Positions 13,484 to 41,667 of a DNA stretch of 64,000 nt are shown here, one piece after another (position 1 is the first letter of the stretch; every line of letters starts with the position of its first letter). Below the pieces are notes generated by a model. That model was not told where the DNA came from, made no database searches, and was given only the letters and a program-made list of their open reading frames with translations. The DNA is from Octadecabacter antarcticus 307 (lineage in GTDB: Bacteria > Pseudomonadota > Alphaproteobacteria > Rhodobacterales > Rhodobacteraceae), in NCBI RefSeq assembly GCF_000155675.2, contig NC_020911.1:4748601-4812600 (forward strand). The letters are read 5' to 3'. Position numbers and translations under genes: made by a program.

Positions 13484-13807
13484 ATGAAGGCACGATTTAC
13501 AGACGAACGGATCATAGCAATTATCAAAGAACAGGAATCTGGGGAGAAGACCGCTGATGTATGTCGGCGGCACGGGATCAGTTCAGCGACGTTCTATAAA
13601 TACACATCGAAGTATGGAGGCATGGAGCCGTCTGACGCGAAGCGGTTGCGGGCCTTGGAAGACGAGAACGGGAAGCTAAAGAAGCTGCTAGCGGAACAGA
13701 TGCTCCCTTCTCGGGACATTGCTGCGCAATACCCTGTCAGGCCAGGGACAATGCAATGTTGCGAGACATCAATTCAAAAAAATGGTGACGCCCGTTGGGA
13801 AGCGTAA
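13484..13807 (+). pseudogene. IS3-family OrfA, frame disrupted by insert A
   Basis: The N-terminal helix-turn-helix is normal: RFTDERIIAIIKEQESG then RRHGISSATFYKYTSKYGG, followed by the leucine-zipper start LRALEDENGKLKKLLAEQML. At that point 41 extra bases (13705-13745) intervene before the expected GACAATGCAATGTTGCG, so the reading frame changes and ends in an unrelated tail. OrfA normally ends near a slippery A7 run (here 13776-13782) at which ribosomes shift into OrfB. With the insert, that fusion cannot form from this reading frame. Confidence 0.82.
13705..13745 (-). repeat. Palindromic mini-insert A
   Basis: 41 bases inserted in orfA, in reverse orientation relative to inserts B and C. 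Hairpin arms GGACATTGC and GCAATaccctGTC around a 3-base loop; one end reads CCCTTCTCGGG, a variant of the CCCTCTCGGC end of the family. Confidence 0.75.
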
Positions 13808-13850
13808 AGCTGTGGTTCACTTGATGGAAACTCATCAGGTTAGCCAGCGA

Positions 13851-13893
13851 CCATTGCCCGGCAGGCGATTGCAAAGCAATCTGCCGAGAGGGG
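13851..13893 (+). repeat. Palindromic mini-insert B
   Basis: About 40 net bases inserted between the VSQR and ACDVL codons of orfB. Core arms GGCAGGCGATTGC and GCAATCTGCC flank AAA, and the 3' end is GAGAGGGG. It is nearly identical to insert D in the unrelated IS1182 transposase (36 of 38 core positions, by eye). Confidence 0.82.
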
Positions 13894-14448
13894 GCGTGCG
13901 ATGTCTTGCAAGTTGATCGATCAACGGTGCGGTATCCGTCTCGCCGTGGCGATGACGCTGAGTTGCGTAATGCCATCAAGCGGGTTTTGAGGGAGCGGCG
14001 ACGGTTTGGTTGCCGTCGTGTTCATGTGATGATCGCGCGCGAAGGCTTTGCGGTGAACCACAAAAAGGTGAGACGCATTTACACTGAAGAGAAGCTCCAA
14101 GTGCGTCGTGGGGGCGGTAGAAAGCGCGCTTTGGGCACGCGGAAGCCGATGGTGCTGCCTGATGGTCCTAACCAGAGATGGTCATTAGATTTTGTGTCTG
14201 ACGCGCTGACTGACGGTCGCCGGTTTCGTATTCTGACGGTTGTCGATGACTTCAGCCGCGAGAACCTGGTGCTTGTCGCGGACACATCATTGTCTGGTCA
14301 GCGCGTTGCCCGAGAACTGGACCGCGTAATCGCTGAGCGCGGCATGCCAAAGACGATTGTGTCGGATAACGTCCTATGCACCGAATTCACCAGCATGGCG
14401 ATCCTCAAATGGGTTCAAAATACGGGCATCGATTGGCATTATATCGCG

Positions 14449-14490
14449 TCCCGCCGCCCGGCAGTGGTTTGCTTGCAAACCATGAGAGGG
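14449..14490 (+). repeat. Palindromic mini-insert C
   Basis: 42 bases in place of one codon, an in-frame gain of 39. Arms TGGTTTGC and GCAAACCA around TT, preceded by CGCCCGGCAG and closed by GAGAGGG, the same outer features as insert B with a different stem. Confidence 0.78.
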
Positions 14491-14767
14491 GGCAAGCCCC
14501 AGCAGAACGGGTTCATCGAAAGCTTCAACGGTAAACTAAGAGATGAATGCCTCAATGAAACGCTGTTTGCTACATTGGGCGACGCCCGCAAAACGCTTGA
14601 AGAATGGCAGGACGACTACAACTGGCGCAGACCACATTCAGCTCTGGGGAACCTGACGCCAATGGAATTTTTAGAGAGAAGGATCATCGACAAGATGACC
14701 GCTTAAGGTCAAAGATTTAGCACCAAGGACTCCGCGCAAAGCTGGAGGGAAATTGGGGCACAGGTCA

Positions 14768-16377
14768 GGCCATACGACGACCAGTGGGCCTATCTATCCT
14801 CCTTGCCGAGAATGTCTGCAGCAGCTGTTTCCAGCCTTGTCGAAACTGCGGAGATCTCCGGGCGGGTGCTGGGCGTCCGCATGCCAGTGGATGACGAACA
14901 TGCAGACGAGCCCTGGAAAATGCCTCCATCGCGGCGCAGCAATCCGCGTCGCCTCGATGCGCCCATGCCGCAGACCATCAAGATGACGATCGCCGACCAG
15001 ATCTATATCGACCGGTCGGAGCTTCCTTCTGCGATGATTGCCCAACTGGTGCGGCTGGCCGCGTTCCAGAACCCCGAATTCTATCGCGCGCAGGCGATGC
15101 GACTGCCAACATTCGGGAAGTCGAGAATTGTGTCCTGTGCCGAACTGCATCCCCGGCATATTGCACTGCCACGCGGCTGTTTTGATGAGGCGGTCGGGCT
15201 CCTGTCCGACCAGGGTGCGAGCGTGGATCTGGACGATCTGCGTGAAGACGGAACCGCCTTGCCGGAGACGGTTCGTTTCCGTGGCGAACTCCGCCAACAG
15301 CAGTCGCCTGCATTCGATGCACTGGCCTGGCACGATAACGGCGTGCTTGCCGCCACGACTGCATTCGGCAAGACAGTCGTGGCCTCGGCTCTGATCGCGC
15401 ACCGTGCCCGCAATGAGCTGGTCCTGGTCCACCGCCGAGAATTGCTGAACCAATGGGTCGAGCGTCTGGGGTCCTTTTTGGAGATCGATCCGAAGCAGAT
15501 CGGCACTATCGGTGCCCGAAAACGCAAACCCACCGGTGTAATCGATGTGGCACTAATCCAGAGTTTGGTCTGCAAAGGCGAGGTGGACGACATCGTCGGC
15601 GATTACGGTCACCTTGTTGTCGATGAATGTCATCATCTGTCCGCCGCGAGTTTTGAACTTGTCGCTCGGAGATCAAAGGCGCGCTATGTCGCAGGTTTGT
15701 CTGCGACAGTAGCTCGAAAAGACGGGCATCATCCGATCATCTTCATGCAGTGTGGCCCGGTGCGCCATCGGGTAAGTGCCAAATCGCAAGCCGCTGTAAG
15801 CGGCATTCACCATCGGGCTCGTGAACGTCATACGAGGTTCCGACTGCCAGAGGACCTGGCCATGGCCGAACGCCCGTCCATGCCCGCGATATATTCCGCT
15901 TTGGCGGAGGACCGTGCTCGAAACGATTTGATCTTCGATGACGTGCTGAAATCACTTGAGGCCAAACGATCCCCGATCGTGCTGACCGAGCGCAGGGATC
16001 ACCTCGAATATCTTCAACAAAGATTTTCTGGGTTTGCAAAGAACATTGTTGTGCTGCGTGGCGGCATGTCCGCCAAGGATCGGAAGACGGCGCAAGCGGC
16101 GCTGAGTGTTGATGATGATGAGGAACGGCTGATCCTTGCGACAGGGCGCTATATCGGCGAAGGCTTCGATGACGCCCGGCTCGATACCCTGTTCCTAACG
16201 ATGCCGATCGCCTGGAAGGGCACGCTGGCGCAATATGTCGGCAGGTTGCACCGACAGCATGACGGAAAGACAGACGTCCTAGTGCTCGACTATGTCGACA
16301 GTGCCGTGCCTGTCCTTGCCAGAATGGCCGCCAAGCGCTGGGCGGGCTATCGTGCGCTCGGCTATGTGATGGAATAG
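14768..16377 (+). pseudogene. TOTE-type primase-helicase, helicase half only
   Basis: An open frame from the IS3 end (PYDDQWAYLSSLPRMS) to TAG 16377, about 536 residues. It matches the C-terminal part of the large proteins in which an archaeo-eukaryotic primase domain precedes a superfamily-2 helicase in TOTE conflict systems; the linker GRVLGVRMPVDDE and the FQNPEFYRAQAMRLPT segment are diagnostic. Helicase motifs: Walker A TTAFGKTVVA, Walker B VVDECHH, motif III LSATVARKDGHH, and motifs V/VI ATGRYIGEGFDDARLDTLF and QYVGRLHR. The primase domain and start are lost to the IS3 insertion. TTG 14803 could still start a fragment. The system was probably antiviral or anti-plasmid before truncation. 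Confidence 0.8.
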
Positions 16378-16406
16378 CGCCCCGCCGGAAGCGGGGCGCT
16401 AGTTTT
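16375..16406. terminator. Bidirectional terminator holding two stop codons
   Basis: An 11-base perfect stem, 16375-16385 with 16391-16401, and a 5-base loop, followed by GTTTT. The TAG of the helicase frame (16375-16377) and the TAG of the opposing integrase frame (16399-16401) are the two outer ends of the stem. Confidence 0.85.
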
Positions 16407-16745
16407 GCCCGGTCGCTCTGGAACGTTGTGTGGCCTCTGCCAATATCTGCATCAGCTTGTCCGAGGGTCCGCGGAATCGCCCGGGCTTGATCAGCAGCGC
16501 ATGATGGGCATCCAGAATTGCGAGCTTCTCGGTTGGGTCCGCGCGCAGGTACATCTCTGTCGTCTGGATACTGGCATGCCCGAGCCAGAGCGCGACTTTA
16601 CGGACATCGCCAGTGGCTTGAAGCGTGTGCATCGCACAGCTATGTCGCAGCACATGCGGGGTTACGTGTTTTGCGGCAATCGACGGCGCCGAGCGTTCGG
16701 CTGTCGACACATGTTGCCTGAGCCTGTAGGCGAAGCCGTCCCGCG
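16399..16745 (-). pseudogene. Tyrosine recombinase/integrase, C-terminal fragment
   Basis: About 115 residues in frame from the IS6 left end (DGFAYRLRQHV) to the stop. It contains the catalytic box HVLRHSCAMHTLQ (His and Arg), LWLGHASIQTTEMYLR (second His and the nucleophilic Tyr). The sequence matches the large phage-like integrases found in recombinase trios and mobile islands. Everything before the catalytic Arg-I region is cut away by IS6 copy 2. It converges on the TOTE helicase, with both stop codons in one terminator, so the two were neighbours in the same ancestral island. Confidence 0.85.
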
Positions 16746-17557
16746 GGGATCGTCAAGTTGCGGGGTATTTCCCTTCGGGGTATGCATTCGTATGATCAAG
16801 CCCAAGCAATCTGGCGCCTTCTTAGGCCATCGTTTTTCTCCTGAGATCATCGCATACGCCGTCTGGGCCTATCACCGATTTCCCATGAGTTTGCGCGATG
16901 TCGAGGACTTGCTGGCAGCACGCGGGATTATAGTCAGCCACGAGACCATCCGCGCTTGGGTAGCGAAATTCGGATCACAATATGCCAAGGTGATCCGCCG
17001 AGATCGACCCAAAGTGGCGGACAAATGGCACCTGGACGAAGTTGTCCTTCCGACAAACGGCAAGAAGTATTGGCTATGGCGCGCTGTCGACAGCAACGGC
17101 GATGTGCTGGACATCCTCGTCCAGTCTCGGCGAAATAAACGGGCCGCGGATCGGTTTTTCCGCAAGCTATTCAAAACATTTGGCGCGCCACGGGTCGTTG
17201 TGACGGACAAACTCCGAAGCTACGGGGCCGCACTAAAGGACCTCGCTCTAGGCATCGAGCACCGAAGCCATAAGAGACTCAACAATCGATCCGAAGGGTC
17301 GCACAGGCCGACCCGGCGGCGAGAAAAATGCATGGGTCGGTTCAAATCACCCCGCCAAGCGCAACAATTTCTCTCCGTCCACGATCAAATCCAAAATGTC
17401 TTCCGCCACCGCCGCCACACGCTTTCAGCCGCTTGCTACCGTCAGTCCAGAGCCGACGCCCATTGGATCTGGGACGACATCACGCGAGTGCTGAAGGCTG
17501 CTTGAGATCCGGCGTCCGGGCTATCGTTGTGAAGATCGCCGAAAACTTGACGATGCC
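16746..17557 (+). mobile_element. IS6-family element, copy 2, complete
   Basis: 812 bp with 14-base terminal repeats differing at one position (GGGATCGTCAAGTT at 16746; inward GGCATCGTCAAGTT at the right end, 17557). The 8 bases to the right, GCTGCGGC (17558-17565), are glpD sequence and recur beside the IS6 remnant at 42088-42095; the 8 bases on the left, GTCCCGCG, do not match. Confidence 0.93.
16792..17505 (+). CDS. IS6-family DDE transposase, full length
   Basis: 237 residues starting MIKPKQSGAFLGHRFSPEII. A helix-turn-helix covers about 25-65 (MSLRDVEDLLAARGIIVSHE), followed by the DDE domain: WHLDEVVLPTNGKKYW, VVVTDKLRSYG and LNNRSEGSHRPTRRRE supply the two Asp and the Glu. IS6/IS26-type enzymes move replicatively, join molecules into cointegrates and generate inversions or deletions when they act within one molecule. 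It is the only intact transposase of its family in the window and the likely driver of the glpD rearrangement. Confidence 0.92.
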   Translation: MIKPKQSGAFLGHRFSPEIIAYAVWAYHRFPMSLRDVEDLLAARGIIVSHETIRAWVAKFGSQYAKVIRRDRPKVADKWHLDEVVLPTNGKKYWLWRAVDSNGDVLDILVQSRRNKRAADRFFRKLFKTFGAPRVVVTDKLRSYGAALKDLALGIEHRSHKRLNNRSEGSHRPTRRREKCMGRFKSPRQAQQFLSVHDQIQNVFRHRRHTLSAACYRQSRADAHWIWDDITRVLKAA

Positions 17558-19080
17558 GCTGCGGCATCGCGCGGGATGCGTCGGGGCGCGGTCTTCGGGT
17601 TGGGCTGGCTGAGATGAATGATCTCGCGTCAGCAACATCCAGTGCGTCGACAAAACTGTTTCATGGCGGTCTTCGCTATCTTGAATATTTCGAAATTCGT
17701 TTGGTCCGTGAGGCATTGATCGAACGCGAAACACTGTTGCGCGCCATGCCACATATCAGCTGGCCGATGCGGTTTGTGCTGCCCTATCACAAAGACATGC
17801 GGTTTGAAGGATCGACGCCAACGTCCAAAATTCTGAATATCGCAATGCTATGGATGAAGGGCCGTCGCCCTGCGTGGCTGATCCGGCTTGGCCTGTTCAT
17901 GTATGACACCCTCGGCGGACGCAAAATTTTGCCCGGCACCACAACCGTCGATCTGCGCACCGCGCTCGAAGGCGAAGGAATCGAGGATCGGTTCGAAAAG
18001 GCCTATGAATATTCCGACTGCTGGATCGAAGATTCACGGCTCGTTGTGCTGAACGCGCGAGACGCGGAAAATCGCGGTGCCAAGATTATGGAGCGTACCA
18101 AAGTCATTTCGACGATCCGCCATGACGATCACTGGGTGGTGCAATTATTGGACCAAGACACCGGCGAAGAAACTACAATTTGCGCCAAGATGCTGGTGAA
18201 CGCGGCAGGCCCTTGGGTTGGTGACATTATCCAGACCAAAGTGCGGCTAAACTCATCCGAGGGCGTGCGATTGGTGCGTGGATCACACATCGTGACGAAG
18301 CGCCTATTTGAACACGATAAAAGCTATTTCTTTCAAGGGACCGACGGGAGAATCATCTTTGCGATTCCTTACGAAACTGATTTTACCTTGATCGGGACGA
18401 CAGACGCGGAACAAGATGATCCAAATGTGAAACCGGTCTGTACCGACGCAGAACGCGATTACCTCATCTCATTCGCAAATCAGTATTTTAAGCGCGACAT
18501 CACGGCTGATGACGTCGTTTGGCGCTATTCGGGTGTACGTCCGCTATACGACGATGGTGCCAAAAGCGCGACTGCGGCGACGCGGGACTATACTTTGAAG
18601 GTCGACACCGATGGTGGCGCGCCCATCCTGAATATCTTTGGCGGCAAGATCACCACCTATCGCCGCCTCGCGCAGAGCGCATTAGGCATGATTAGTCCCT
18701 TTTTTGAAGATGTATCCGCAGATTGGACTGCAAGCGTTCCGCTGCCAGGTGGGGATTTTCCGGTAGACGGTGTCGCAACTCTGATCGCTGATCTGAAACA
18801 GGCCAATCCGTTACTTGATGATCCTTGGGCAAAGCGACTTGTGCGCGCCTATGGCACCGACGCGAAGAATGTGACCACAAACGCGAAATCCGCCGCCGAT
18901 CTCGGCCAAGATTTTGGCGCGTCTTTGACCGAAGCAGAAGTAACATGGTTGATGGATCATGAATATGCACGTCGCGGAGAAGACGTCGTGTGGCGTCGCA
19001 ATAAGCTTGGTCTTCGCATGACGGACGATCAAATCGCAAATCTGGATGGCTGGATGGTTGCACGAAGCAATGCAGCATAA
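17558..19080 (+). pseudogene. glpD: Glycerol-3-phosphate dehydrogenase, 3' part (first 21 codons displaced)
   Basis: From the IS6 junction the frame reads CGIARDASGRGLRVGLAEMN and then a normal FAD-dependent GlpD to 19080: FHGGLRYLEYFEIRLVREAL, GTTDAEQDDPNVKP, WRYSGVRPLYDD and the FGGKITTYRRLAQ domain end. Missing is the FAD-binding GxGxxG start, which lies on the opposite strand at 42088-42150. Joined, the two give a 525-residue GlpD of usual length. GlpD oxidises glycerol-3-phosphate to dihydroxyacetone phosphate at the membrane. ATG 17614 could start a product, but it would lack the dinucleotide-binding loop. Apart from the break the sequence is undamaged, so the event is recent. Confidence 0.93.
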
Positions 19081-19103
19081 TCATAATTGGCCCGGTTTAG
19101 TGT

Positions 19104-19643
19104 CTATTCAGACCGAAATTTTTCGCTGTCAGTGAGAACGAGATCAAGATGGTCAGCCAAATATATCTGTAGCCAAGGTGTAAAGATATCGGGATCCTGC
19201 GCGACCTCTGCCGCGAGGTCGTAAATATCGACCCAACGGGTCTCTGCCACCTCATTTGGGTCTAAATCCAAATGCAGCGACCCAATTTTTGCCGCCGCAA
19301 CAAAAAGATCCACGACTTCGTGTTCAATCATCCCATCCCCAACATCGGCACGATATTCAATCTGATCGCGAAACATGGGCTGCAGTCCAGTAATCCCAAG
19401 CTCGTCTTTAAGGCGACGCGCCGCACAAATGCTCGGGTCTTCGTCCCAGTGAGGATGCGTGCAACACGTATTCGCCCAAAGCCCCGGAGTATGATATTTC
19501 GACAATGCCCGCCGCTGAACCAAGACAGACGTGCCATCCATCACAAATACCGAAACCGCTTTGTGGCGAATGCCCTTTTGGTGAACCTCAAGTTTTTCCA
19601 TTGGCGTAAGCAAACCGTTCACCCACGCCGGTATCATTGTCAT
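19104..19643 (-). CDS. idi: Isopentenyl-diphosphate delta-isomerase, type I
   Basis: 179 residues; ATG 19643 has AAGGAGGT eight bases upstream, so a longer frame starting at 19715 is not used. The enzyme interconverts isopentenyl and dimethylallyl diphosphate for isoprenoid, quinone and carotenoid synthesis. Motifs: NTCCTHPHWDE with the catalytic Cys near residue 65, the Nudix-like AARRLKDELGI near 83, and the acidic YRADVGDGMIEHEVVDLF with the catalytic Glu near 115. In phototrophic relatives idi often sits with photosynthesis genes; here it is convergent with glpD and no such genes are in view. Confidence 0.92.
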   Translation of the reverse strand: MTMIPAWVNGLLTPMEKLEVHQKGIRHKAVSVFVMDGTSVLVQRRALSKYHTPGLWANTCCTHPHWDEDPSICAARRLKDELGITGLQPMFRDQIEYRADVGDGMIEHEVVDLFVAAAKIGSLHLDLDPNEVAETRWVDIYDLAAEVAQDPDIFTPWLQIYLADHLDLVLTDSEKFRSE

Positions 19644-19863
19644 TTGGGAACCTCCTTGCTGCAAATTGACTGCTGGAATTGTCACCGTTCGCACCTCTTT
19701 CGGCATTTTGGGCAATATGACCTAATGGTCTACACCTTGCACGCGGCATGTTATCGCATATTGGGCATCTAGCGGATATTCTGCTGGACGAAGACGTCTT
19801 AAACACTAATTCTACGCATGAGACGGTGATCGCCGTGTTCAAAATGACGCTAGGGAGATTCCT

Positions 19864-20331
19864 ATGTCCAAGTTTATTTATGCCGCCGCGTTCACGCTTC
19901 TGGCCGCACCTGCTTTCGCAGATGGCCAAGCAGCGACAGGCGATGCCGAAGCTGGTGAGCAACAATTTGACCGTCAATGTGTGGCCTGCCACGTTGTTGC
20001 CGATGCAGACGGAGAGGTGCTTGCTGGACGCAACGCACGCACGGGTCCAAATCTTTATGGTCTCGCGGGCCGTCAACTGGGCGTCATTGACGGTTTCCGC
20101 TATAGCGATGCAATTGTCGAACTTGGTGAAGCTGGTACAGTTTGGGACGAAGGAGCTTTTGTTGGATACGTACAAGACCCAACCGGCTGGCTGCGCGGCG
20201 CGCTCGACAACAACCGTGCGCGGGGCAAAATGGCTTACCGTGTCCGCGACGCGCAAGACGCCATCGATATTTATGCTTACCTCGCAACATTTGGCGCGAT
20301 CGCTGCAGAGGCAGAAGCTGACTCTAATTAG
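19864..20331 (+). CDS. Class I c-type cytochrome, periplasmic
   Basis: 155 residues with a signal peptide at 1-19 (cleaved after AFADG) and one haem site, QCVACHVV, near residue 40. The distal methionine ligand is probably in GKMAYRV near residue 122, and the GPNLYGLAGR segment is typical of cytochrome c2-like electron carriers. An AGGGAG ribosome binding site precedes the ATG. The acidic C-terminal tail AAEAEADSN is unusual but harmless. It may serve the respiratory chain; no partner oxidase is adjacent, and the gene stands alone between idi and the phosphatidyltransferase gene. Confidence 0.9.
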   Translation: MSKFIYAAAFTLLAAPAFADGQAATGDAEAGEQQFDRQCVACHVVADADGEVLAGRNARTGPNLYGLAGRQLGVIDGFRYSDAIVELGEAGTVWDEGAFVGYVQDPTGWLRGALDNNRARGKMAYRVRDAQDAIDIYAYLATFGAIAAEAEADSN

Positions 20332-20493
20332 AGGCCAGTTTGCGCCTAAGAAAGTCAACGTTCAAGAACTGGGGCTTCGCAGATGCGTGGCCCTTTTTCA
20401 TTTCAAACTGAACAAGTGGGTAACTTTCGTGTCAGTGCGATTGCACGGAACGGATGCTTAGGCCACAACCGCTCTCAAACACTGAGAGGTCCT

Positions 20494-21111
20494 ATGCTGG
20501 ATACTGCTGCCCGCAAATTGATTGATCCGCCGCTGAACGCGATCGGCCGAAATCTAGCCGGTCGTGGCGTAACAGCGGATGGTGTGACCCTTGCGGGTCT
20601 GGCGCTTGGCCTGTTAGCCGCGTTTTGTATTGCAGTTGGCTGGCCGCTGGTTGCGCTGGTCCCGTTGCTGGCGTCGCGCATTGCCGATGGTCTAGACGGC
20701 GCAGTCGCACGTGCATCCAAGACGACTGATTTTGGTGGCTACCTCGATATCGCCTGTGATTTTTTGTTCTATGGCGCGATCCCATTTGCGTTTGTTTTGA
20801 TGGACTCTGCAAACAATGCCATCGCAGGTGCGTTTCTGCTGATGAGCTTCTATTTCAACGGCACGAGTTTCCTCGGCTACGCCATCCTCGCGGAAAAGCG
20901 CGATATGGAAACATCGGCCCAAGGTATCAAGTCGCTCTACTTCTCAAACGGATTGCTGGAGGGGACCGAAACCATCGTCTTCTTCGTTCTTTTGTGTCTG
21001 TTCCCCGCATCGTTTGCGATGCTCGCTTGGATTTTTGGGACGCTTTGCTTTGCGACTGCAACCCTCCGTATTGTCGCCGCTCGGCGCGTATTCACCACAA
21101 AGGAAGACTGA
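20494..21111 (+). CDS. CDP-alcohol phosphatidyltransferase family membrane protein
   Basis: 205 residues starting MLDTAARKLIDPPLNAIGRN, with GAGAGG before the ATG; a 37-codon longer frame lacks such a site. The family motif DG-x2-AR-x8-G-x3-D-x3-D is intact as DGAVARASKTTDFGGYLDIACD split over residues 66-87. Six hydrophobic segments are visible. Such enzymes move a phosphatidyl group from a CDP-lipid to an alcohol; the acceptor is unknown. The stop overlaps the start of the next gene (TGATG), so it is cotranslated with the YnjBCD-like transporter, a pairing also seen in relatives, which may mean that the transporter handles the acceptor alcohol. Confidence 0.85.
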   Translation: MLDTAARKLIDPPLNAIGRNLAGRGVTADGVTLAGLALGLLAAFCIAVGWPLVALVPLLASRIADGLDGAVARASKTTDFGGYLDIACDFLFYGAIPFAFVLMDSANNAIAGAFLLMSFYFNGTSFLGYAILAEKRDMETSAQGIKSLYFSNGLLEGTETIVFFVLLCLFPASFAMLAWIFGTLCFATATLRIVAARRVFTTKED

Positions 21112-22310
21112 TGAAACACCTCACTTTGATCGCAGCGCTTGTCGCTCCCACTTTTGCGTTGGCCAATCCTGACCCATCCGACTGGGACGCGGTGACGACG
21201 CAGGCCAGCGGCCAAACTGTTTACTGGAACGCATGGGGCGGATCGACCACGACGAACGACTTTCTCGCGTGGGTCGGGGATCGTGTGTTGGAAGACTACG
21301 GCGTCGTGCTTGAACATGTGAAATTAACGGATACCGCTGACGCCGTGACACGAGTGTTGAGCGAGAAGCAGGCGGGCGAAGACGATGACGGTGCCATCGA
21401 CTTAATCTGGATCAACGGGTCCAATTTTGCCGCGATGAAAGACGCCGATCTGTTGTTTGGGCCCTACGCGGAACAACTGCCAAACTGGGCCGTCGTGGAT
21501 GTCGACGGCAAGACAGTTCAGACTGATTTCACAGTACCGGTAGAAGGATATGAATCGCCTTGGGCTATGGCGCAGGTCGTGTTCGTGCACAACACGGCCA
21601 CGATGCCGGAAACGTTGGGTTCTATGGACGCGTTGTTGGAATGGGCACAGGCTAACCCTGGTCGTTTCAGCTATCCGCAGCCGCCAGATTTCCTTGGCAC
21701 GACGTTTCTGAAGCAAGCGTTGGTTGATATCCTTGATGATCCTTCGGTGCTGCAATCCCCTGCCACAGATGAAAACTACGACGTCGTCACCGGCCCGCTT
21801 TGGGCCTATCTTGACGCACTGACCCCACATCTATGGCGGATGGGCCGCGCTTATCCAGCAACAGGGACCGCGATGTTCCCACTAATCGCTGACGGTGAGT
21901 TGGATCTGTCGATTTCGTTCAGCCCAGGTGCTGCATCCACTGCGATTTCAAACTTTGAATTGCCCGATACAGTCCGCACCTTCGTGCTGGACAAAGGCAC
22001 CATCGGCAACGCGTCTTTTGTGGCGATCCCTTACAATTCAGGCTCGGCTGCAGGGGCGATGGTTGTCGCGAACTTCCTGATGTCACCCGAGGCACAGGCC
22101 CGTGCGCAGGACCCCAATATCCTTGGCTATGGCACAGTTTTGGACATGGACGCATTGTCTGCTGATGAACGCGCAGCTTTTGACGCGCTTGAACTGGGCA
22201 TCGCAACCTTGTCACCTGCTGAATTAGGCTCTGTTCAGGCGGAACCGCACCCCAGCTGGGCGACACGTATCGCGGATGATTGGGCCGAACGGTACGGTAC
22301 AGGGCAATAG
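21111..22310 (+). CDS. ABC transporter substrate-binding protein, YnjB-like
   Basis: 399 residues beginning MKHLTLIAALVAPTFALANP, a signal peptide cleaved near residue 19. The mature protein follows the extracellular solute-binding fold: YWNAWGGSTTTNDFLAWVGD near the start, GAIDLIWINGSNFAAMK, and late segments NASFVAIPYNSGSAAGAMVV and GYGTVLDMDALS typical of the YnjB family. The start overlaps the upstream stop by one base and AAAGGAAG precedes it. Substrate is unknown; E. coli YnjBCD is only loosely linked to thiamine-type ligands. Permease and ATPase genes follow directly. Confidence 0.88.
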   Translation: MKHLTLIAALVAPTFALANPDPSDWDAVTTQASGQTVYWNAWGGSTTTNDFLAWVGDRVLEDYGVVLEHVKLTDTADAVTRVLSEKQAGEDDDGAIDLIWINGSNFAAMKDADLLFGPYAEQLPNWAVVDVDGKTVQTDFTVPVEGYESPWAMAQVVFVHNTATMPETLGSMDALLEWAQANPGRFSYPQPPDFLGTTFLKQALVDILDDPSVLQSPATDENYDVVTGPLWAYLDALTPHLWRMGRAYPATGTAMFPLIADGELDLSISFSPGAASTAISNFELPDTVRTFVLDKGTIGNASFVAIPYNSGSAAGAMVVANFLMSPEAQARAQDPNILGYGTVLDMDALSADERAAFDALELGIATLSPAELGSVQAEPHPSWATRIADDWAERYGTGQ

Positions 22311-22334
22311 ATCAGGGTTGATAAAGGCAGGGCT

Positions 22335-30019: not shown

Positions 30020-30040
30020 GGTTCACTCCTTCGGATTGGG

Positions 30041-33085: not shown

Positions 33086-33174
33086 ATGTGGGTCGCCTTA
33101 TATCTGGTGGTCGGGGCATCGCGGGCGGGTACAATCACCCGCGTACAATTGATTCTCAGTGTTCTTCTCCTCTA

Positions 33175-33212: not shown

Positions 33213-33285
33213 ATCGGGCTAATTAGATTGGAATAAGACATAGACGCGATCCGGAACACTTCTAAAACACGCGCCAAGGATAAGA

Positions 33286-34314
33286 ATGAACCTGAAACGA
33301 CCGGCCCCAACACTTCATGACGTTTCAGTGGCCGCCGGCGTGTCGACGGCGACTGTATCACGTTGCCTGAACTTTCCAGACCAAGTCGCAAAGCTCACCC
33401 GTGATAAGGTTCTTTCGGCCATCCAACTGCTCGGTTATTCACCTAACTTCGGCGCAAAAGCGATGGCGGCGCGCCGGACAAACACAATCGGCGCGATCAT
33501 CCCGACAATGGAAAATGCAATTTTCGCGCGTGGCCTTGAGGCCTTTCAGGAAGAACTGCGACTCCACGGGTTCACGATGCTCGTGGCCAGCACATCCTAT
33601 CGCCCTGAAATTGAGGAAGAACAGATCAGATCACTGGTCGCACGCGGCGCCGATGCACTGCTTTTGATCGGCCATGAAAGAGACCCTGAAATCTACCGCT
33701 TCCTTGAAACCCAAGGTGTCCCAGTGTTGATCACTTGGGTGTTTGACGCCGAATCCACACGGCCATCTGTGGGTTTTGACAACAGGGTCGCGATGATGGA
33801 AATGGCGATAAAGGTCATTGAATTTGGTCATACCGAGCTTGCGTTTATCTCGGCAGCGACGGCCCGAAACGACCGCGCGACAGCGCGGCTAAACGGCATC
33901 GGGGACGCTATGATTGCGGCTGGGTTGAATGCCGACGATCTGCATTGCATTGAAACCACTTATGGCATCGAAGAGGGCGCGGCAGCCTTTGACAAACTGA
34001 TGCTGAAAACCCCAAGACCAACGGCTGTTTTTTGCGGCAATGACGTCTTGGCCGTCGGCGCGCTTCGCCGTGCGAGAGAGTTAAAGATCGCAGTGCCACA
34101 GGATGTATCAATCATAGGTTTTGACGACATTGAACTGGCGCAAGTAGCTTATCCGCCCCTGACGACTGTCCACGTTCCACATCGCGAAATGGGTCGTCGC
34201 GCTGGCCATGCCCTTGCAGATCATTTGAAGAACGGCACGCCATTGAAGTCTGTGCAGCTTGGAACCCGGCCTGTTCTGCGCGAAACCTTGGCACCTGTCA
34301 AAGTGGGCTCTTGA
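33286..34314 (+). CDS. LacI-family transcriptional regulator
   Basis: 342 residues. The N-terminal LacI helix-turn-helix is TLHDVSVAAGVSTATVSRCL followed by the hinge region LLGYSPNFGAKAMAARRTNT to about residue 65. The rest is a periplasmic-binding-like effector domain, with AVFCGNDVLAVGALRRAREL and VSIIGFDDIELAQVAYPPLT, typical of GntR/PurR-like members. It is divergent from hpsN, so it most likely controls the sulfonate operon and itself from the shared region, with an operon metabolite as inducer. The inducer cannot be told from sequence. Confidence 0.9.
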   Translation: MNLKRPAPTLHDVSVAAGVSTATVSRCLNFPDQVAKLTRDKVLSAIQLLGYSPNFGAKAMAARRTNTIGAIIPTMENAIFARGLEAFQEELRLHGFTMLVASTSYRPEIEEEQIRSLVARGADALLLIGHERDPEIYRFLETQGVPVLITWVFDAESTRPSVGFDNRVAMMEMAIKVIEFGHTELAFISAATARNDRATARLNGIGDAMIAAGLNADDLHCIETTYGIEEGAAAFDKLMLKTPRPTAVFCGNDVLAVGALRRARELKIAVPQDVSIIGFDDIELAQVAYPPLTTVHVPHREMGRRAGHALADHLKNGTPLKSVQLGTRPVLRETLAPVKVGS

Positions 34315-34524
34315 TTGATCGGCTGGTCCAACCACGGGACAATTGCGGCCGCTAAAACATTACTGGCAGCATAGTATCTGGCGGAAATCATCGAAGAAAC
34401 TGCGCATATTGCCTACGCGCGCCACGCCTTGATGGCGGCGCATGGCGAATTTTGTTGAAAAACTCTTGTTGATTTGAAGCTTGCTCACTGATTCAATTGT
34501 TCCTAACAGCAAGGGGTAATTTCG

Positions 34525-35951
34525 ATGTTGGGACCGAAGCAAGAAGCGCAGGGCGCACTGTTTTACGAGTTTTCGATTGATGATCACGTGCCGCAAGACC
34601 ACCTGTTACGTTGAATTGATCGGTTCGTGGATCTGTCGAGTATTCGTCCACATCTGGCAGAATTCTATAGTCACACTGGCCGCCCCTCGATTGATCCTGA
34701 GCTCCTGATCCGCATGTTATTGGTGGGCTATTGCCTCGGTATTCGATCCGAACGCAGGCTTTGCGAAGAGGTGCATCTCAACCTGGCCTATCGCTGGTTC
34801 TGCCGCCTCGATCTTTCCGATCCGGTGCCTAATCATTCAACATTTTCGAAGAACAGGCCCTCTCGGCAGATTGCTATGCAATCGCCTGCCAGGCAGTGCA
34901 TGGGCGCTTTCGAGACAGTGATTTGTTGCGCCACCTGTTTGAGACGACCGTTGCGCGCTGTATTGCGGATGGCTTGGTGAGCGGCCAACGCTTCGCTGCT
35001 GACGCAAGCCTGATCGAAGCCGATGCCAATAAACAGAATTCAACGCCGAAAGATGATTGGGACGCATCGACGATAAATTCCGAAGATGCGCCGCGTGCTG
35101 TTCGTGAGTATCTCGACGTTCTGGATGATGCCGCATTTGGTGCAGCGACTACGGTTGAGCCGAAGTTTACCTCGCATTCTGACCCATCCAGTCAATGGAC
35201 TGCCGCTCGCAAAGGACCTGCTTTCTTTGCATATTCGACTAATTACCTGATCGACACGGATTACAGCGTCATCGTTGATGTCGAACCAAGCCGCTCTATT
35301 CTAAGCGCGGAAGTTGGCGCATCACGCACGATGTTGAGTATGGTTAAAGATCGCTTCGAGCTGCAACCAGAACGTCTCATTGCCGATACAGCATACGGCT
35401 CTGCCAAGAACCTTGGCTGGCTGGTCGAACACGGTATAGCTCCGCATATTCCTGTCATCGACCAGTCGGGTCGCAAAGATGGAACTTGGTCTCGGGTCAA
35501 CTTCGCATTGGATACAGAGAACGATCAATACGTTTGTCCAGAAGGCGAAGCGCTCAAGCAGTTCCGCCGCAACTATTCCGACCCGAACCGAGGCCCCGAC
35601 GGCAAGGGCGTCGCCAAGTATCAGGCGCTAAAGTTGTCGTGCCAAGCCTGTCCCTCAAAACCTAAATGTTGCCCGAATGCAGATGTGCGCAAGATCACCC
35701 GCGAAGAACACGAAGACGCCCGCCAGGTCGCCCGCAATATTGCTAAGACCAAGCAATATGTCATCTCAATGAGACTACGACAGAAGGTCGAGATGCTCTT
35801 CGCTCACCTCAAACGCATCCTGGGGCTAGGACGGCTTCGATTACGAGGACCATGCGGCGCAAATGACGAATTCCTCCTCGCCGCAACCGCCCAAAACCTC
35901 CGCAAACTAGCCAAAATCTTTCCTGCACCGCAGCAAGCGTGCAAAGCCTGA
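34525..35951 (+). pseudogene. IS1182-family transposase with premature stop and palindromic insert D
   Basis: ATG at 34525 opens MLGPKQEAQGALFYEFSIDD but TGA at 34612 stops it after HLLR. The frame continues (IDRFVDLSSIRPHLAEFY, GRPSIDPELLIRMLLVGYCL) to SKNR, where insert D (34855-34898) shifts it by 41 bases; it resumes as HGRFRDSDLLRHLFE and reads on to 35951. The DDE-type core includes FAADASLIEADANKQ, ERLIADTAYGSAKNLGWL and KVEMLFAHLKRILGLGRLRL. Comparison with the copy at 61672-62867, which reads SKNRHGRFRDSD without interruption, shows both lesions directly. Confidence 0.9.
34855..34898 (-). repeat. Palindromic mini-insert D
   Basis: 44 bases where the intact copy has one codon, a net gain of 41. 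In reverse orientation it contains TGCCTGGCAGGCGATTGC, then ATA, then GCAATCTGCCGAGAGGG, almost the same sequence as insert B in the IS3 element. Confidence 0.88.
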
Positions 35952-36238
35952 TAAGAAAGGCGCTTGCGCCCAGTTCAACGCCAGACTTTCTGCACGCGCA
36001 ACACGGTGTTTTTCAACAGAATCGGCTATAAGTGAACCAGAACAGGGGGGCGGTCCGCTCGGCTTAGTAAACACTGCCGTTTACTCTGCGTTCTGATGTC
36101 TCAACAGCCTATTTCTAGGAAGCATTCCGTTCGCGCAAGAACTGAAATTCTTCAAAACCTCACAGTGCGGACAATTCGCTTATGCTCGGGTTTGATATCT
36201 TACGCCAAGTGAAGGACTACCGGCTGACGCCGGTAGCC

Positions 36239-36656
36239 TCATTTAGAGGAATGCAATTCCAGATACTGTGTGATGACGTCGTCAGTCACATTTCCAGAGG
36301 TGGTTGAGAAATATCCGCGTGCCCAAAACCGCCTGCCCCAGTAGCGCTTACGCAACTCAGGGAATTCCATCTGGATGCGGCGCGACGAGCGGCCCTTTAT
36401 GCGTTGCATAACGTTGGACAGGGACAGTTTTGGTGGGATCGACAGGAACATGTGCACATGATCGCGTCCCAGCACACCTTTTGCGATATGGACGCCCATT
36501 TCGGCCCATGTTTGCATGATAATCTCGCGTATCCGCTCTCGCATCTCACCCTGCAAAACCTTGTATCTATATTTTGTGACCCACACGACATTTTGTGACC
36601 CACACGACGTGAAATCTGTGGTAAAATCGCGTGTGCGCGGATGAGGAATAACGCAT
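36239..36656 (-). pseudogene. tnpA: IS200-type Y1 transposase TnpA, frameshifted by a 19-bp duplication
   Basis: From ATG 36656 the frame gives MRYSSSAHTRFYHRFHVVWVTK, then a duplicated 19-base unit shifts it. After removing one unit the protein continues YRYKVLQGEMRERIREII to the end, 132 residues, the standard length. The HUH motif is GRDHVHMFLS near residue 65; the nucleophilic Tyr is probably in VTDDVITQYLELH. Rolling-circle-like Y1 enzymes excise and insert the element as single-stranded DNA. The shift leaves this copy inactive. Confidence 0.88.
36572..36609. repeat. 19-bp tandem duplication inside tnpA
   Basis: Two adjacent units of TTTTGTGACCCACACGAC plus one base (36572-36590 and 36591-36609), differing at the last base. 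The unit encodes the conserved VVWVTK segment. Confidence 0.95.
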
Positions 36657-36723
36657 GATCTTCTCTCCTGAATTTTGAAACCCGCATTAGCAGTATGGTT
36701 TCAAAATTCAGGAGAGAAGATCA
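36656..36723. repeat. 27-bp perfect inverted repeat at the tnpA start
   Basis: Arms 36656-36682 and 36697-36723 are exact complements around a 14-base loop. One arm begins within the tnpA start codon and includes its ribosome binding region, so the RNA would fold and hide the start, a known style of IS200 expression control. Confidence 0.92.
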
Positions 36724-36781
36724 ATCATAGATTCGCTGAAGCTGACCGGCTAGAAGCCGGTCGTTTCGATCCATTAGTTGG

Positions 36782-37905
36782 AAAGTGAAATCTGCCCCCG
36801 TGGGCAAACACTGTGACGGGGCCGGGCTTTGGCTGGTGAAGCGCGACGATGGCGGGGCGCAATGGGTTTAGGTGGCTATCCTGCGCTCGGGCTGGCGAAC
36901 GCCCGCAAACTGTCCGAACGCTGGCGCAATGTGGCATCGGCTGGCCGTGATCCAGTGAAGGAACGCGAAGCCGAGGAACGGGCGGTACGTCGCGAAGACA
37001 TAACACTGGCAATATTGACCGCCGATGCTTTTGAATCTCGTAACGCGGAATTGAAAGGGGATGGAACAGCGGGCCGGTGGCTTTCCCCCCTGACCATTCA
37101 CGTTCTACCCAAACTGGGCCGAGTGCCGGTGACTGACCTCGACCAGCGCGATATTCGCGACACCCTTGCGCCTATCTGGCACACGAAGGCAGATACTGCG
37201 CGCAAGGCGATGAACCGGCTTTCAATCGTAATGAAGCACGCGGCGGCGCTGGGCTTAGATGTGGACCTGCAAGCGACCGACAAAGCAAAGGCGCTTCTGG
37301 GGAAAACGCGGCACATCCCTAAGAAAATTCCGGCTATGGCGTGGGCTGATGTGCAGGACTTCTATGCCAGCCTCGAAAAGCCAACGCTGACCCATCTTGC
37401 TTTGCGGCTTCTGATACTGACCGGGCTGCGCTTTGCTCCCCTGCGCAATTTACGACTGGACGATATCGAAGGTGACGTGTGGACCGTGCCAGCCGAAGCC
37501 ATGAAGGGCCGCAAAGGTGCAACAGAAGATTTCCGCGCGCCGCTTTCGAGCGAAGCCCAGCGCATCATTGATCTGGCACGCCCGCACGCTCGCAAAGGCT
37601 TCCTTTTTCCGAATACGAAGGGCGGTGTGATTAGTGATATGACCCTTTCGCGGATGATGGAACGTCGCGGACTAGAAGCGCGCCCACATGGCTTCCGCAC
37701 AAGCCTGCGCACATGGCTGGCCGAAGCGACCGACGCCCCGCATGAAGTGGCCGAAGCGATGCTGGCGCACGTCACGGTTGGTGGCGTGGTGCGCGCCTAT
37801 CGCAGAACTGACTATCTTGAGCAGCGTCGGGCACTTTCCAAACGCTGGGCCGACCATGTGACCGGCGGCGCTGGGCAGGTGGTGCAGTTGGTGGGGGCAA
37901 GCTGA
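36782..37905 (+). pseudogene. P4-type tyrosine integrase, broken near its N-terminus
   Basis: The N-terminal arm-binding part reads KVKSAPVGKHCDGAGLWLV and then KRDDGGAQWV before a stop; coding resumes in another frame at GLGGYPALGLANARKLSE, so about 12 residues are deleted with a frameshift, and the extreme start is lost near the IS200 end. The remaining 340 residues contain the core-binding domain and the catalytic residues: Arg in LTGLRFAPLRNLRLDD, His-x2-Arg in PHGFRTSLRTWLAE, and Tyr in VRAYRRTDYLEQRR. Such integrases insert islands and prophages at tRNA genes; none is seen here. Confidence 0.82.
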
Positions 37906-38758
37906 TGGCTCGGAATAAAACTGAAAAACCGACACCTCTGCTGCGACACTCGCGACTTCTGCGACATGGGGAACCCCAGATTGGCGGGTGAACGTCGTCC
38001 CTAAGGCGTGTTTCTGTGTAGTGGATACGCACACTGTATTGGCAGCCATTGAAGCTGCAGGAAGTGAAGGTCGTGCAGTATATCATCCCGAAGTTGACAA
38101 TAAAGCACACGCTGGGATTTATAGCTTATCAGTAGAGGAAGCGAACTTGCTGGCACACCTAGCAGATGAGGTTTGGTGTGAATTTTTAACCAAAGACAAT
38201 GCAGATGCCCTTCCCATGAGTGGGTGCGCGAAGTCAGTGGACGTCGAATAGACCTGCTATCTAGAAAAGTGCTGGCATATGACGGGCAAACAATTGGTCG
38301 AAAATTTGAAATAATATGGTGATTGGCACAGTTAATTCAAACTGGGCTGCACACAGATCGTCGAGCGACATTTGTGCGGACTGTGCTAAGCACACTGTCG
38401 GCGCACGAAGTGGAACACACTTTCAAACCCGTCGTGGACGGAGATCAAAACGAGGCGCTAGCCTTTTATTCGTGGCTAACTACTTTACAGAAACCTCAGC
38501 CTAGTTGGCGAGCCTTTCGTTGGAAGCAATAGTAAGGCCTCAACAACCCACCACCAGACTTAGGGTTGACAATTAGGGGGGTAAAAAATCATCCTAGACT
38601 CAGTAGCTGTTTATTTTAACAGCTGAACTAAGTTAAGTGGTGCCGCTGATAGGAACCGTATACCAAGTAGAGTCTATGTATAATAAGGTATTAGGCGTGA
38701 TCTCTGAGGTATAATGAGTTCCTCTCTGCTCTGTTTTGAGTTCCTGCCCTCCAGCATC
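37906..38758 (+). other. Non-coding or degraded stretch after the integrase
   Basis: No recognisable gene. A 28-residue frame (ATG 37905, overlapping the integrase stop, MARNKTEKPTPLLRHS) is placed like the small genes that follow such integrases. An 87-residue frame from GTG 37988 to 38251 and a 69-residue one from TTG 38323 to 38532 match nothing I know and lack good ribosome binding sites. Base composition is more AT-rich than the core genes, in keeping with island debris. Confidence 0.5.
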
Positions 38759-38821
38759 TGACCTGCGCCCCTAAAACTCCTCCAGATTTGTGTAGAGTCC
38801 GCCCAACAAAAGGACGGACAA

Positions 38822-39145
38822 ATGAAGGCGCGATTTACAGACGAACGGATCATAGCAATTATCAAAGAACAGGAATCTGGGGAGAAGACTGCTGATGTAT
38901 GTCGGCGGCACGGGATCAGTTCAGCGACGTTCTATAAATACACATCGAAGTATGGAGGCATGGAGCCGTCTGACGCGAAGCGGTTGCGGGCCTTGGAAGA
39001 CGAGAACGGGAAGCTAAAGAAGCTGCTAGCGGAACAGATGCTCCCTTCTCGGGACATTGCTGCGCAATACCCTGTCAGGCGAGGGACAATGCAATGTTGC
39101 GAGACATCAATTCAAAAAAATGGTGACGCCCGTTGGGAAGCTTAA
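38822..39145 (+). pseudogene. IS3-family OrfA, copy 2, disrupted by insert A
   Basis: Sequence and lesion are the same as in copy 1 (13484-13807): a normal helix-turn-helix and zipper start, then the 41-base insert at 39043-39083 that destroys the frame. The only protein difference I see is PVRRGTM in place of PVRPGTM within the insert. Sharing the lesion shows that the two copies descend from an already interrupted element. Confidence 0.85.
39043..39083 (-). repeat. Palindromic mini-insert A, copy 2
   Basis: Same 41 bases as 13705-13745 apart from one change (GGCGAG for GGCCAG at the right side). Confidence 0.78.
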
Positions 39146-39717
39146 AGCTGTGGTTCACTTGATGGAAACTCATCAGGTTAGCCAGCGACCATTGCCCGGC
39201 AGGCGATTGCAAAGCAATCTGCCGAGAGGGGGCGTGCGATGTCTTGCAAGTTGATCGATCAACGGTGCGGTATCCGTCTCGCCGTGGCGATGACGCTGAG
39301 TTGCGTAATGCCATCAAGCGGGTTTCGAGGGAGCGGCGACGGTTTGGTTGCCGTCGTGTTCATGTGATGATCGCGCGCGAAGGCTTTGCGGTGAACCACA
39401 AAAAGGTGAGACGCATTTACACTGAAGAGAAGCTCCAAGTGCGTCGTGGGGGCGGTAGAAAGCGCGCTTTGGGCACGCGGAAGCCGATGGTGCTGCCTGA
39501 TGGTCCTAACCAGAGATGGTCATTAGATTTTGTGTCTGACGCGCTGACTGACGGTCGCCGGTTTCGTATTCTGACGGTTGTCGATGACTTCAGCCGCGAG
39601 AACCTGGTACTTGTCGCGGACACATCATTGTCTGGTCAGCGCGTTGCCCGAGAACTGGACCGCGTAATCGCTGAGCGCGGCATGCCAAAGACGATTGTGT
39701 CGGATAACGTCCTATGC
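39120..39717 (+). pseudogene. IS3-family OrfB, copy 2, 5' part
   Basis: The first half of OrfB, with insert B at 39189-39231 breaking the frame as in copy 1. It includes [11 protein letters not shown] and IVSDNVLC, and is cut by the IS110 insertion directly after the VLC codons. It continues at 41352. Confidence 0.85.
39189..39231 (+). repeat. Palindromic mini-insert B, copy 2
   Basis: Identical to 13851-13893. Confidence 0.82.
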
Positions 39718-39724
39718 GCGGAAT

Positions 39725-39965
39725 GATTAGCTGAATTGGCGTCAGGTTATTGTCGCATCGAGGCGTCTCGACACGTTAGAAGCATTGCTCAGTTTGGCAT
39801 TTTGGTCAACGAACTGTCTCTCCCATAACAAACACAGAGTACGCTTTTGCGGCTCTCACCGTCCTTAAGACGAGATCTTTGGGTCGTTGAGCAGAAGGCC
39901 TAAACATTATCTACGAGGTCAGTTGTCTGCCTCCACGGCCCTTACAGAGAAAGGTCCTACTGCTG
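39725..39965 (-). ncRNA. Possible IS110 bridge RNA region (3' flank)
   Basis: IS110/IS1111 elements carry a structured bridge RNA in a non-coding end that pairs with target and donor. This 240-base flank is long enough; the 150-base 5' flank (41203-41351) is the alternative. I did not derive a structure, so this is only a location for the search. Confidence 0.25.
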
Positions 39966-39969
39966 TCGA

Positions 39970-41202
39970 TCACCCCTCAAAGAAGGGGCGATATGGTTCG
40001 CCGTGCTTGATGATCCCATGAACGGTTCGGGCCATCTTCGCTGCGATTGCGGTGTACGCCTTTCGGCGCAAATGGGTGTTGTGACGGTCTTTGGCGATGT
40101 AGCGCTCGAACTTGTCGCGGAAGCTGTTGGTGCGCTGCAGAATAGCAACCTGTCCAGCCATCCAAAGCGTTCGACGAAGCCGAGCATTGCCATATTTTGA
40201 CAGTTTGGTTTGCCCTCTGAATGTACCTGATTGCATAGTCGCAAGGTCCATTCCACAGAACTTCGAAAACTGCCGGTGATGACGAAAGCGCCGTACATCC
40301 CCAGCTTCTGCCAAAATTGTCAAAGCATTGATGGGACCGATTCCAGGTATCGATGTCAGTAGCTTATAATCTGGTAGGTCCTTGAGAAGCGCGACGGCGC
40401 GATCTTCAATTTGATTGCGTTGCGCGATAAGACTGCGGCCTTCCCCGAGAACCAAGCGGAACATGCTTATCGCGTCGGAATCTGCGGCAACCGGCAGTCC
40501 GACTGATACTTTGGCAGTCTCGTAGATATCTGAAAGTAAACGCTCTTTTGCAACCTTGCGGCCCACCACATCCCAAGCGTCAGCGATGAATGCCTCCTTG
40601 CTCATGGCTGAGATCAAGTGTGGTGACGGATAACGTTCAAGGAAAGCAAAGAACCAGTCACTGCGAGAACTGCGATGGAAACGATCAGCTTCGGGAAAAT
40701 ACAGCGGCAGATAATGGGTTAAAACTCGGTGCCACAACTCGGTCTTCGACTTGGATACGATGTCATGCGTTTTGGAAAGCTCTTGGATGTCGTTAGTGCC
40801 ACGCACGAGGGGGTCATGATAAAACTGCTCGTTCCCGATCTCCATCATGTGAAGAATGACCTGGGCATCCTTAGGGTCGTTTTTGTCCCAACTGTTGTGC
40901 AAGGCCTCTCGCGTTCTGGCCAGGGCCACAGATGACACCAACTTCAACTCAAAACCTGCTGCGGCAAGATGATAAGCCAAGGCACGGGGATAATTACCCG
41001 TTGCTTCAAAAGCTACACGGACAGGGCGGCCGTAGCAGGCAAGCGATGTGATTAGACGATTGAAGTCGTCTAGCTGGTTCAGAACAGTCAAACGACGGCG
41101 GCGCTTCTTGCCCGAAATAGCAATGAGACCTTCGTCACGGGCCTTCGAGATATCGATGGCCACCAAAACGGGCGCAGTTTGTGTAATAATGATATCGGTC
41201 AT
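39970..41202 (-). CDS. IS110-family DEDD recombinase
   Basis: 410 residues from ATG 41202, which has AAAGGAGA upstream; a longer frame to 41304 is not used. The N-terminal DEDD RuvC-like domain shows VLVAIDISKARDEG (Asp), VAFEATGNYPRAL (Glu) and NDPKDAQVILHM (Asp pair). The C-terminal Transposase_20 domain has LLTSIPGIGPINALTIL and FCGMDLATMQSGTFRGQ followed by LSKYGNARLRRTLWMAG, with the catalytic Ser likely in the MQSGTF stretch. No lesion is visible, so this element may be active. Such enzymes use a bridge RNA to choose their target. Confidence 0.92.
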   Translation of the reverse strand: MTDIIITQTAPVLVAIDISKARDEGLIAISGKKRRRRLTVLNQLDDFNRLITSLACYGRPVRVAFEATGNYPRALAYHLAAAGFELKLVSSVALARTREALHNSWDKNDPKDAQVILHMMEIGNEQFYHDPLVRGTNDIQELSKTHDIVSKSKTELWHRVLTHYLPLYFPEADRFHRSSRSDWFFAFLERYPSPHLISAMSKEAFIADAWDVVGRKVAKERLLSDIYETAKVSVGLPVAADSDAISMFRLVLGEGRSLIAQRNQIEDRAVALLKDLPDYKLLTSIPGIGPINALTILAEAGDVRRFRHHRQFSKFCGMDLATMQSGTFRGQTKLSKYGNARLRRTLWMAGQVAILQRTNSFRDKFERYIAKDRHNTHLRRKAYTAIAAKMARTVHGIIKHGEPYRPFFEG

Positions 41203-41351
41203 AGTTGGTCTCCTTTGCGGTGTGGTTTGTACAAAACCACCGTAGGGACCTGAGGCACGGCTATGACCACCTGCTGCGTTATTTGGGGCTGCGCAGGCAG
41301 TCATAGCCTTAAATTAGCGATATTCCGAAGGTGTTACGGCCCAGAATATAT

Positions 41352-41667
41352 CAGCATGGCGATCCTCAAATGGGTTCAAAATACGGGCATCGATTGGCAT
41401 TATATCGCGTCCCGCCGCCCGGCAGTGGTTTGCTTGCAAACCATGAGAGGGGGCAAGCCCCAGCAGAACGGGTTCATCGAAAGCTTCAACGGTAAACTAA
41501 GAGATGAATGCCTCAATGAAACGCTGTTTGCTACATTGGGCGACGCCCGCAAAACGCTTGAAGAATGGCAGGACGACTACAACTGGCGCAGACCACATTC
41601 AGCTCTGGGGAACCTGACGCCAATGGAATTTTTAGAGAGAAGGATCATCGACAAGATGGCCGCTTAA
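41352..41667 (+). pseudogene. IS3-family OrfB, copy 2, 3' part
   Basis: Carries [16 protein letters not shown], insert C (41410-41451), and [19 protein letters not shown] with the catalytic Glu, ending at TAA 41667. It matches copy 1 except for the final residues (KMAA here, KMTA there). Confidence 0.85.
41410..41451 (+). repeat. Palindromic mini-insert C, copy 2
   Basis: Identical to 14449-14490; an in-frame gain of 39 bases inside the HYIAPGKP motif. Confidence 0.78.

Follow-up and report, generated by a model that had tools for sequence, protein, structure and literature searches.

Palindromic elements of Rickettsia interrupt protein-coding genes of Alphaproteobacteria, are larger than 37–45 nt and keep the reading frame. 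Bacterial miniature inverted-repeat transposable elements (MITEs) are small, non-coding and presumably non-autonomous, with terminal inverted repeats and target duplication. The byps of yeast mitochondria provide a precedent for bypass at the RNA level. Repetitive extragenic palindromes (REPs) and bacterial interspersed mosaic elements (BIMEs), found with RAYT transposases, are short palindromes in hundreds of copies with a conserved motif directly 5′ of the stem, and they are presumed to move as folded single strands. In REPs and IS200/IS605 elements, cleavage follows a guide tetranucleotide located 5′ of the palindrome, according to the available part of PMC8266576. The yeast mitochondrial GC clusters (GC42) and the double-hairpin elements of organelles are mobile palindromes of about 40 nt whose units vary, merge and shuffle, by a mechanism that the available part of PMC4478555 leaves open. 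Herein, we describe a family of hairpin inserts of about 37–45 nt in Octadecabacter antarcticus 307. They were first noted in a stretch of 64,000 nt (contig NC_020911.1, positions 4,748,601 to 4,812,600 of the forward strand), called the window and numbered from its first base. Searches of open-licence papers listed no description of this family. The strings palindrom, repeat and hairpin are absent from the main text, as available, of the O. antarcticus genome paper, which reports many transposable elements and pseudogenes (PMC3646047).

The preliminary description of the window had claimed inserts at four sites, A to D, in unrelated transposases, with three of them repeated in a second copy of one insertion sequence (IS). 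All were present at these places:

13421–14767, + strand: IS3-family element, copy 1, with transposase frames broken by A, B and C (from the sequence and homologues without inserts)
13705–13745, − strand: element A, antisense to the IS3 transposase, net +41 (from reading and uninterrupted relatives)
13852–13892, + strand: element B, sense, net +40 versus empty sites (from reading and uninterrupted relatives); left CATTGCCC, GGCAG, stem GCGATTGC/GCAATCTG, CC, GAGAGGG
14452–14490, + strand: element C, sense, net +39 (from reading and uninterrupted relatives); left CGCCGCCC, GGCAG, stem TGGTTTG/CAAACCA, T, GAGAGGG
34514–35951, + strand: IS1182-type transposase region broken by D (borders approximate; IS name from the preliminary description)
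34858–34898, − strand: element D, antisense, inside the IS1182-type transposase, net +41 (from reading against the uninterrupted IS1182 copy of the window)
38759–41728, + strand: IS3-family element, copy 2, split by another element (from the sequence)
39043–39083, − strand: element A, second copy (from sequence reading)
39190–39230, + strand: element B, second copy (from sequence reading)
41413–41451, + strand: element C, second copy (from sequence reading)
61629–62867, + strand: IS1182-type relative, uninterrupted and N-terminally shortened, with the empty site of D near 61800–61814, where the preliminary description had placed it

The net gains at A, B and C were obtained by alignment with IS3 relatives in other genomes. 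The gain at B was one base below the full element length, and C alone kept the reading frame. Relatives without the inserts exist, although in one of them, from genome G206 (locus L322), a different hairpin fills site B while sites A and C are empty. B and D, said to share a nearly identical core, were inverted copies of each other with 93% identity over 41 nt. Within the window, the 17-nt right half gave 5 matches at up to 3 mismatches, compared with 0.20 expected.

These inserts and the copies outside the window are a single family, with fixed ends and palindromic but variable stems. The layout is CAYTGCCC-GGCAG-stem-loop-stem-Y-GAGAGGG, in which CAYTGCCCGGCAG (left arm) and GAGAGGG (tail) are the conserved ends. 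A search of the entire genome for the B/D core, with 3 mismatches allowed, gave 35 + 43 copies, compared with 0 + 0 for the reversed pattern. The ends alone (GGCAG-N8..38-GAGAGGG) gave 193 + 213 copies versus 1 + 5 in the control, and the strict pattern TGCCCGGCAG-N14..26-GAGAGGG gave 134 + 150 = 284 copies versus 0 + 0. A finder combining left arm, palindrome and tail was run on 668 kb, made up of the window and 40 stretches of the same genome (604 kb) taken around listed copies, so that density and site types are biased. It returned 282 elements with 102 stem sequences, and 1 element in the reversed sequence. GGCAG preceded the stem in 241 of the 282, whereas REPs are described with GTAG or CGTC tags. 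The stem mostly had 7–9 pairs and a short loop, followed by one or two bases and GAGAGGG.

The palindrome was also seen when elements were selected by their ends alone, which yielded 152 distinct inner sequences. For inner sequences of 17, 18, 19, 20, 21, and 23 bases, the mean Watson–Crick fraction over seven pairs was 0.95, 0.91, 0.85, 0.86, 0.74, and 0.68, respectively. Shuffling the partners, a control that ignores sequence relatedness, gave 0.61, 0.54, 0.66, 0.67, 0.53, and 0.48, respectively. The two longest classes (21 and 23) paired poorly at two outer positions. A single stem position held up to four pair types. Such free variation of stems within one genome differs from GC42, where the stems are conserved, and it also sets the family apart from REPs. 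As CAYTGCCC and GAGAGGG are not inverted versions of one another, the elements have no terminal inverted repeats. In this they differ from MITEs, which they resemble in being small, non-coding and presumably non-autonomous. With genome-wide copies, variable stems, typed flanks and empty sites in agreement, the view of one hairpin family in both orientations held, and hundreds of further copies of the core exist in the genome. Chance similarity, assembly error or ordinary IS coding sequence is practically ruled out by the near-zero controls, the uninterrupted relatives and the copies in independent genomes.

Alignment with uninterrupted homologues defined the borders. Paralogous sites within the fetched stretches provided 47 flank groups with a junction-spanning match. 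Exact removal of everything from the 8-base left arm through GAGAGGG fit 29 of these groups, a removal shorter by one base fit 7, and 11 gave other values. No target-site duplication was found in these 47 groups against empty paralogous sites, nor at A, B and C against the relatives. MITEs differ in this respect, and GC42 is discussed with AG target-site nucleotides. The left flank of 97 distinct sites had C at −1 (80%), T at −2 (58%), A at −3 (46%) and C at −4 (53%), and G came next on the right in 74%. IS200/IS605-derived elements insert without target duplication, have hairpin ends and use a fixed target sequence on the left; here the left target is only partly fixed, with C (often ATC) favored. 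Reading frames at the 97 sites were also compared. A clear winner with 250 or more open codons emerged at 23 sites, some of them in the same gene: exact removal at 13, removal of one base fewer at 7 and of one base more at 3. For the full set of 97, the median open frame was 163 codons after exact removal, 146–151 when one base off and 140 when unremoved.

Hairpins occurred in both orientations relative to the host gene, even within one gene. An apparent excess of antisense copies (34, compared with 14 sense) was dropped because the count included some sites twice and because 13 of the 23 Pfam-typed sites were antisense and 10 sense. The two orientations give different RNAs. Removal from RNA by ribosomal bypassing or hairpin splicing, which would agree with the frames restored at a number of sites, was rejected on these grounds and is extremely improbable. 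Translational bypass elements differ from the hairpins on the same point. Removal, if any, must take place at the DNA level.

Some sites held different hairpins in different copies. Besides site B, the D site in IS1182-type copies held two hairpin types, and one IS3 site held three different stems (L099, L151, and L200). Two IS3-type copies (L090 and L093), 99.3% identical over 193 codons, carried unrelated hairpins at one common site. Such cases favor either recurrent insertion at preferred sites or an in-place exchange of elements. Hybrid elements were also present, left-left at L085:4538 and right-right at L084:4520 and L095:3097. These suggest that one arm plus its flank can be copied onto the other, and by such copying the stems would stay palindromic without selection.

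Transposase-type or integrase-core domains were detected by Pfam beside 23 of 30 sampled sites in this genome, whereas REPs are described as extragenic. Four of the 23 matches (L064, L089, L070:14402, and L093) were below the curated cut-off, one further segment had only a weak helix-turn-helix match and six had none. The sample was every third of the 97 distinct sites up to the 88th, with 7 swapped for a neighbor because of a duplicate or too-short segment, and a scanned segment may be some hundred bases from its site. Host types in this genome were IS3, IS21, IS66, IS110, IS256, IS5, and IS1182/IS4. In other genomes, 40 of 75 elements had their flanks scanned. Transposase-type domains were found at 18 flanks (L152 below cut-off) and phage or recombinase genes at five (two methylases, a portal gene, a Mu gp27 gene and a resolvase); five flanks held ordinary genes and twelve were uninformative. 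The statement that the hairpins insert in mobile DNA therefore stands as a strong tendency and fails as a rule, given the five ordinary gene families and twelve uninformative flanks. A distinction from the Rickettsia elements, also made in the preliminary description, was borne out by the smaller size, the often shifted frame and the location mostly in IS genes. From GC42, the hairpins further differ in their bacterial host, conserved tail and transposase-gene preference. Element B matched 77 plasmid records at 178 places. Among the 40 matches listed, 39 were annotated and none had a listed gene beneath it, in a table that excludes pseudogenes. C, the sole element queried against phage records, had no match there.

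If the host or a plasmid used the hairpins to silence transposons by insertion into their transposase genes, an accumulation in such genes of about seven IS types, with several hairpins per gene, would also be expected. This reading is very improbable, as IS copies with hairpins have multiplied, insertions also hit phage and ordinary genes, and no gene is known to be associated with the hairpins. The concentration is most simply explained by hitch-hiking on dispensable DNA that multiplies.

The family extends well beyond this genome. The strict pattern matched 122 of 390 Rhodobacterales genomes in 60 of 139 genera, compared with two control matches in the rows listed. A looser pattern tried on 295 genomes of the family stayed near the control outside O. 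antarcticus 307, and the strict pattern was used instead. G341, G399, G501, and G413 contained 87, 82, 58, and 43 copies, respectively, and these amplifications elsewhere are separate. Six other congeneric genomes had 0–2 copies each, so the bulk of the hundreds of copies here probably arose recently. Collection scans found at least 75 elements in at least 62 of 138 loci examined, mostly from Rhodobacterales where named, and 15 of 65 stem sequences in these loci also occurred in O. antarcticus 307. Outside the order, one locus of Vreelandella neptunia (L159:4178) carried an element beside an IS3-type gene, suggesting transfer together with its IS. In G501, a genome without a Y1 transposase match, a hairpin-laden unit has multiplied: a triple of hairpins at constant spacing (G501:C1, e.g., 1215362–1215674) is present in seven complete and two partial copies. 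The frames of this unit are short and unclear after excision, and the unit was not counted in favor of intact frames.

We consider it somewhat probable that the hairpins are non-autonomous palindromic mini-elements, about 37–45 nt long, that insert seamlessly and perhaps move as single-stranded DNA through an activity supplied in trans. The left arm could fold as a small hairpin, followed by a second hairpin that is self-complementary and free in sequence, and then by the tail. In this form, the element may be cut and pasted as folded single-stranded DNA by the trans-supplied activity, or it may be copied by a polymerase that changes strands when it meets the hairpin. Recognition would be by shape, with the stem sequence left free. 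The lack of target duplication, the tolerance of many stems and the arm copying together point to folded single-stranded DNA. Transposase genes would fill up with hairpins because they are dispensable, present in many copies and carry the element to new places.

Several results weigh against this account. No mobilizing enzyme was identified. Matches to Y1 (HUH) transposases, which in REP and IS200/IS605 systems mobilize hairpins of this sort by the same route, were absent from G399, G501, G067, G250, and G432, which have 82, 58, 24, 13, and 13 copies, respectively, and the ends of the Y1 element in the window differ by eye from those of the hairpins. No autonomous element with the same ends was noticed among the unpaired ends in the 668 kb, which were mostly weaker copies missed by the finder, and no systematic search for one was made; MITEs have an autonomous IS with matching ends. 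Borders were off by at least one base in 18 of the 47 flank groups. DNA folding predicted pairing in all five sequences folded, with moderately low z-scores of −0.85 to −2.09, so that folding energy alone is not the evidence; the small extra hairpin of the left arm was predicted in two of the five. By eye, elements with GGCAA instead of GGCAG still mostly had C as left neighbor, so a match between guide and target is not supported, and the site list, read by eye, gave no support for guide/target covariation.

The window contains the following Y1 gene:

36257–36589, − strand: IS200-like Y1 transposase

REP-like palindromes moved by RAYT/TnpA-REP or an IS200-type (Y1) transposase, with GCAG in the guide role of GTAG, would account for GGCAG directly 5′ of the palindrome, given that such tetranucleotides choose the cleavage sites in REP/IS200 systems (PMC8266576, as available). 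There were 24 Y1 matches in this genome. Among 20 other genomes, matches were found in 5 of 10 copy-rich ones with 13–87 copies (G341, G413, G007, G355, and G311) and in 0 of 10 with 0–2 copies. This difference may reflect overall IS load, as IS-rich genomes may hold more of everything, and the other five copy-rich genomes lack a match. Ten Y1 loci showed no consistent flanking pair of elements by eye, though some elements lay within 1.5 kb. The hairpins sit in genes, and their stems are not conserved inside one genome. The Y1 results point both ways, and we regard this explanation as unlikely. If an HUH enzyme is the mover, it must be of another type or have been lost in the five genomes; otherwise movement must depend on the replication machinery or on an enzyme from an IS or a phage. 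Upstream of the window Y1 gene lies a perfect 27-bp inverted repeat with a 14-nt loop (36656–36723), and attttgtgacccacacgac is directly duplicated at 36571–36608. An Rfam scan of 13000–42000 returned only sub-threshold microRNA models on the long inverted repeat near 36650–36734, unrelated to the hairpins. Elsewhere in the window, three tandem copies of a 270-bp unit (100, 93, and 82%) lie at 55081–55890 in a long open frame (54842–56875). The element splitting IS3 copy 2 was IS110-like by our reading rather than by Pfam typing.

Single transposase genes carry 3–7 hairpins, and one open frame is possible after their removal. The IS1182-type copies in L070, L083, and L096 have three hairpins each (one sense and two antisense) and 467 open codons after excision. 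An IS21-type gene in L096 has four and a 318-codon frame after removal. The IS3-type gene in L084, L090, and L093 has seven, and it forms a single 308-codon frame if one border is one base shorter. G399 copies with four and five hairpins, IS5-like by eye, were open over 275 and 247 codons after excision, respectively. Among four IS1182-type copies, the dN/dS ratio was 0.08–0.14. Because these copies are mosaics, nearly identical in the regions around the inserts, the ratio was set aside as functional proof. Other interrupted pairs ranged from 0 to 1.52. The IS1182-type protein had no unbroken full-length match among 78 matches, with all 93 candidates scored, and some of its pieces contained stops. 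Judged from these frames, transposase function after insertion is not proven.

The window IS3 shows a similar picture. This genome has 13 left-hand copies, copy 1 included, which are 98–100% identical and all span A and B, as well as 12 right-hand parts spanning C, two of them within full copies. No uninterrupted copy was found among the best 40 of 234 and 8 of 217 candidates. At least 10 of the 13 left-hand copies end at query position 966, the site of the other element (39727–41340) in window copy 2; the site was read in copy 2 alone.

Both this and the open frames would fit reversible elements resembling internal eliminated sequences (IESs). These would be excised precisely from DNA, for example, from one strand per replication, leaving interrupted transposases functional in part of the population while IS copies keep spreading. 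The low ratios and the lack of an unbroken IS1182-type protein point the same way. Against this, the selection signal of the mosaic copies may stem from recombination with functional donors, and the other pairs reach 1.52. Exact excision lengthened the frame only modestly over the 97 sites, stops occur within some pieces and a recent burst of insertion would likewise leave the exons intact. At one plasmid locus, all 30 full-query records at 100% were filled. Reversible excision is, in our judgment, distinctly unlikely. It is quite improbable that the hairpins are bacterial IES-like DNA that enters transposase genes scarlessly and leaves precisely at the DNA level in either orientation, with only the fold and short ends recognized and the ISs staying alive.

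Short palindromic repeats are already known, and what distinguishes this family is its ends, the freedom of its stems and its habitat. Within a major marine bacterial order, it appears to be a widespread family of mobile DNA not described before. The usual bacterial palindromic repeat has a conserved stem, is extragenic and is tied to a Y1 transposase, a picture from which this family departs. Because its ends are fixed and its stems free, the family offers many natural variants for finding what recognizes a DNA hairpin by shape. Insertion sequences are here parasitized by something about thirty times smaller, which raises the question of whether the interrupted transposases still work.

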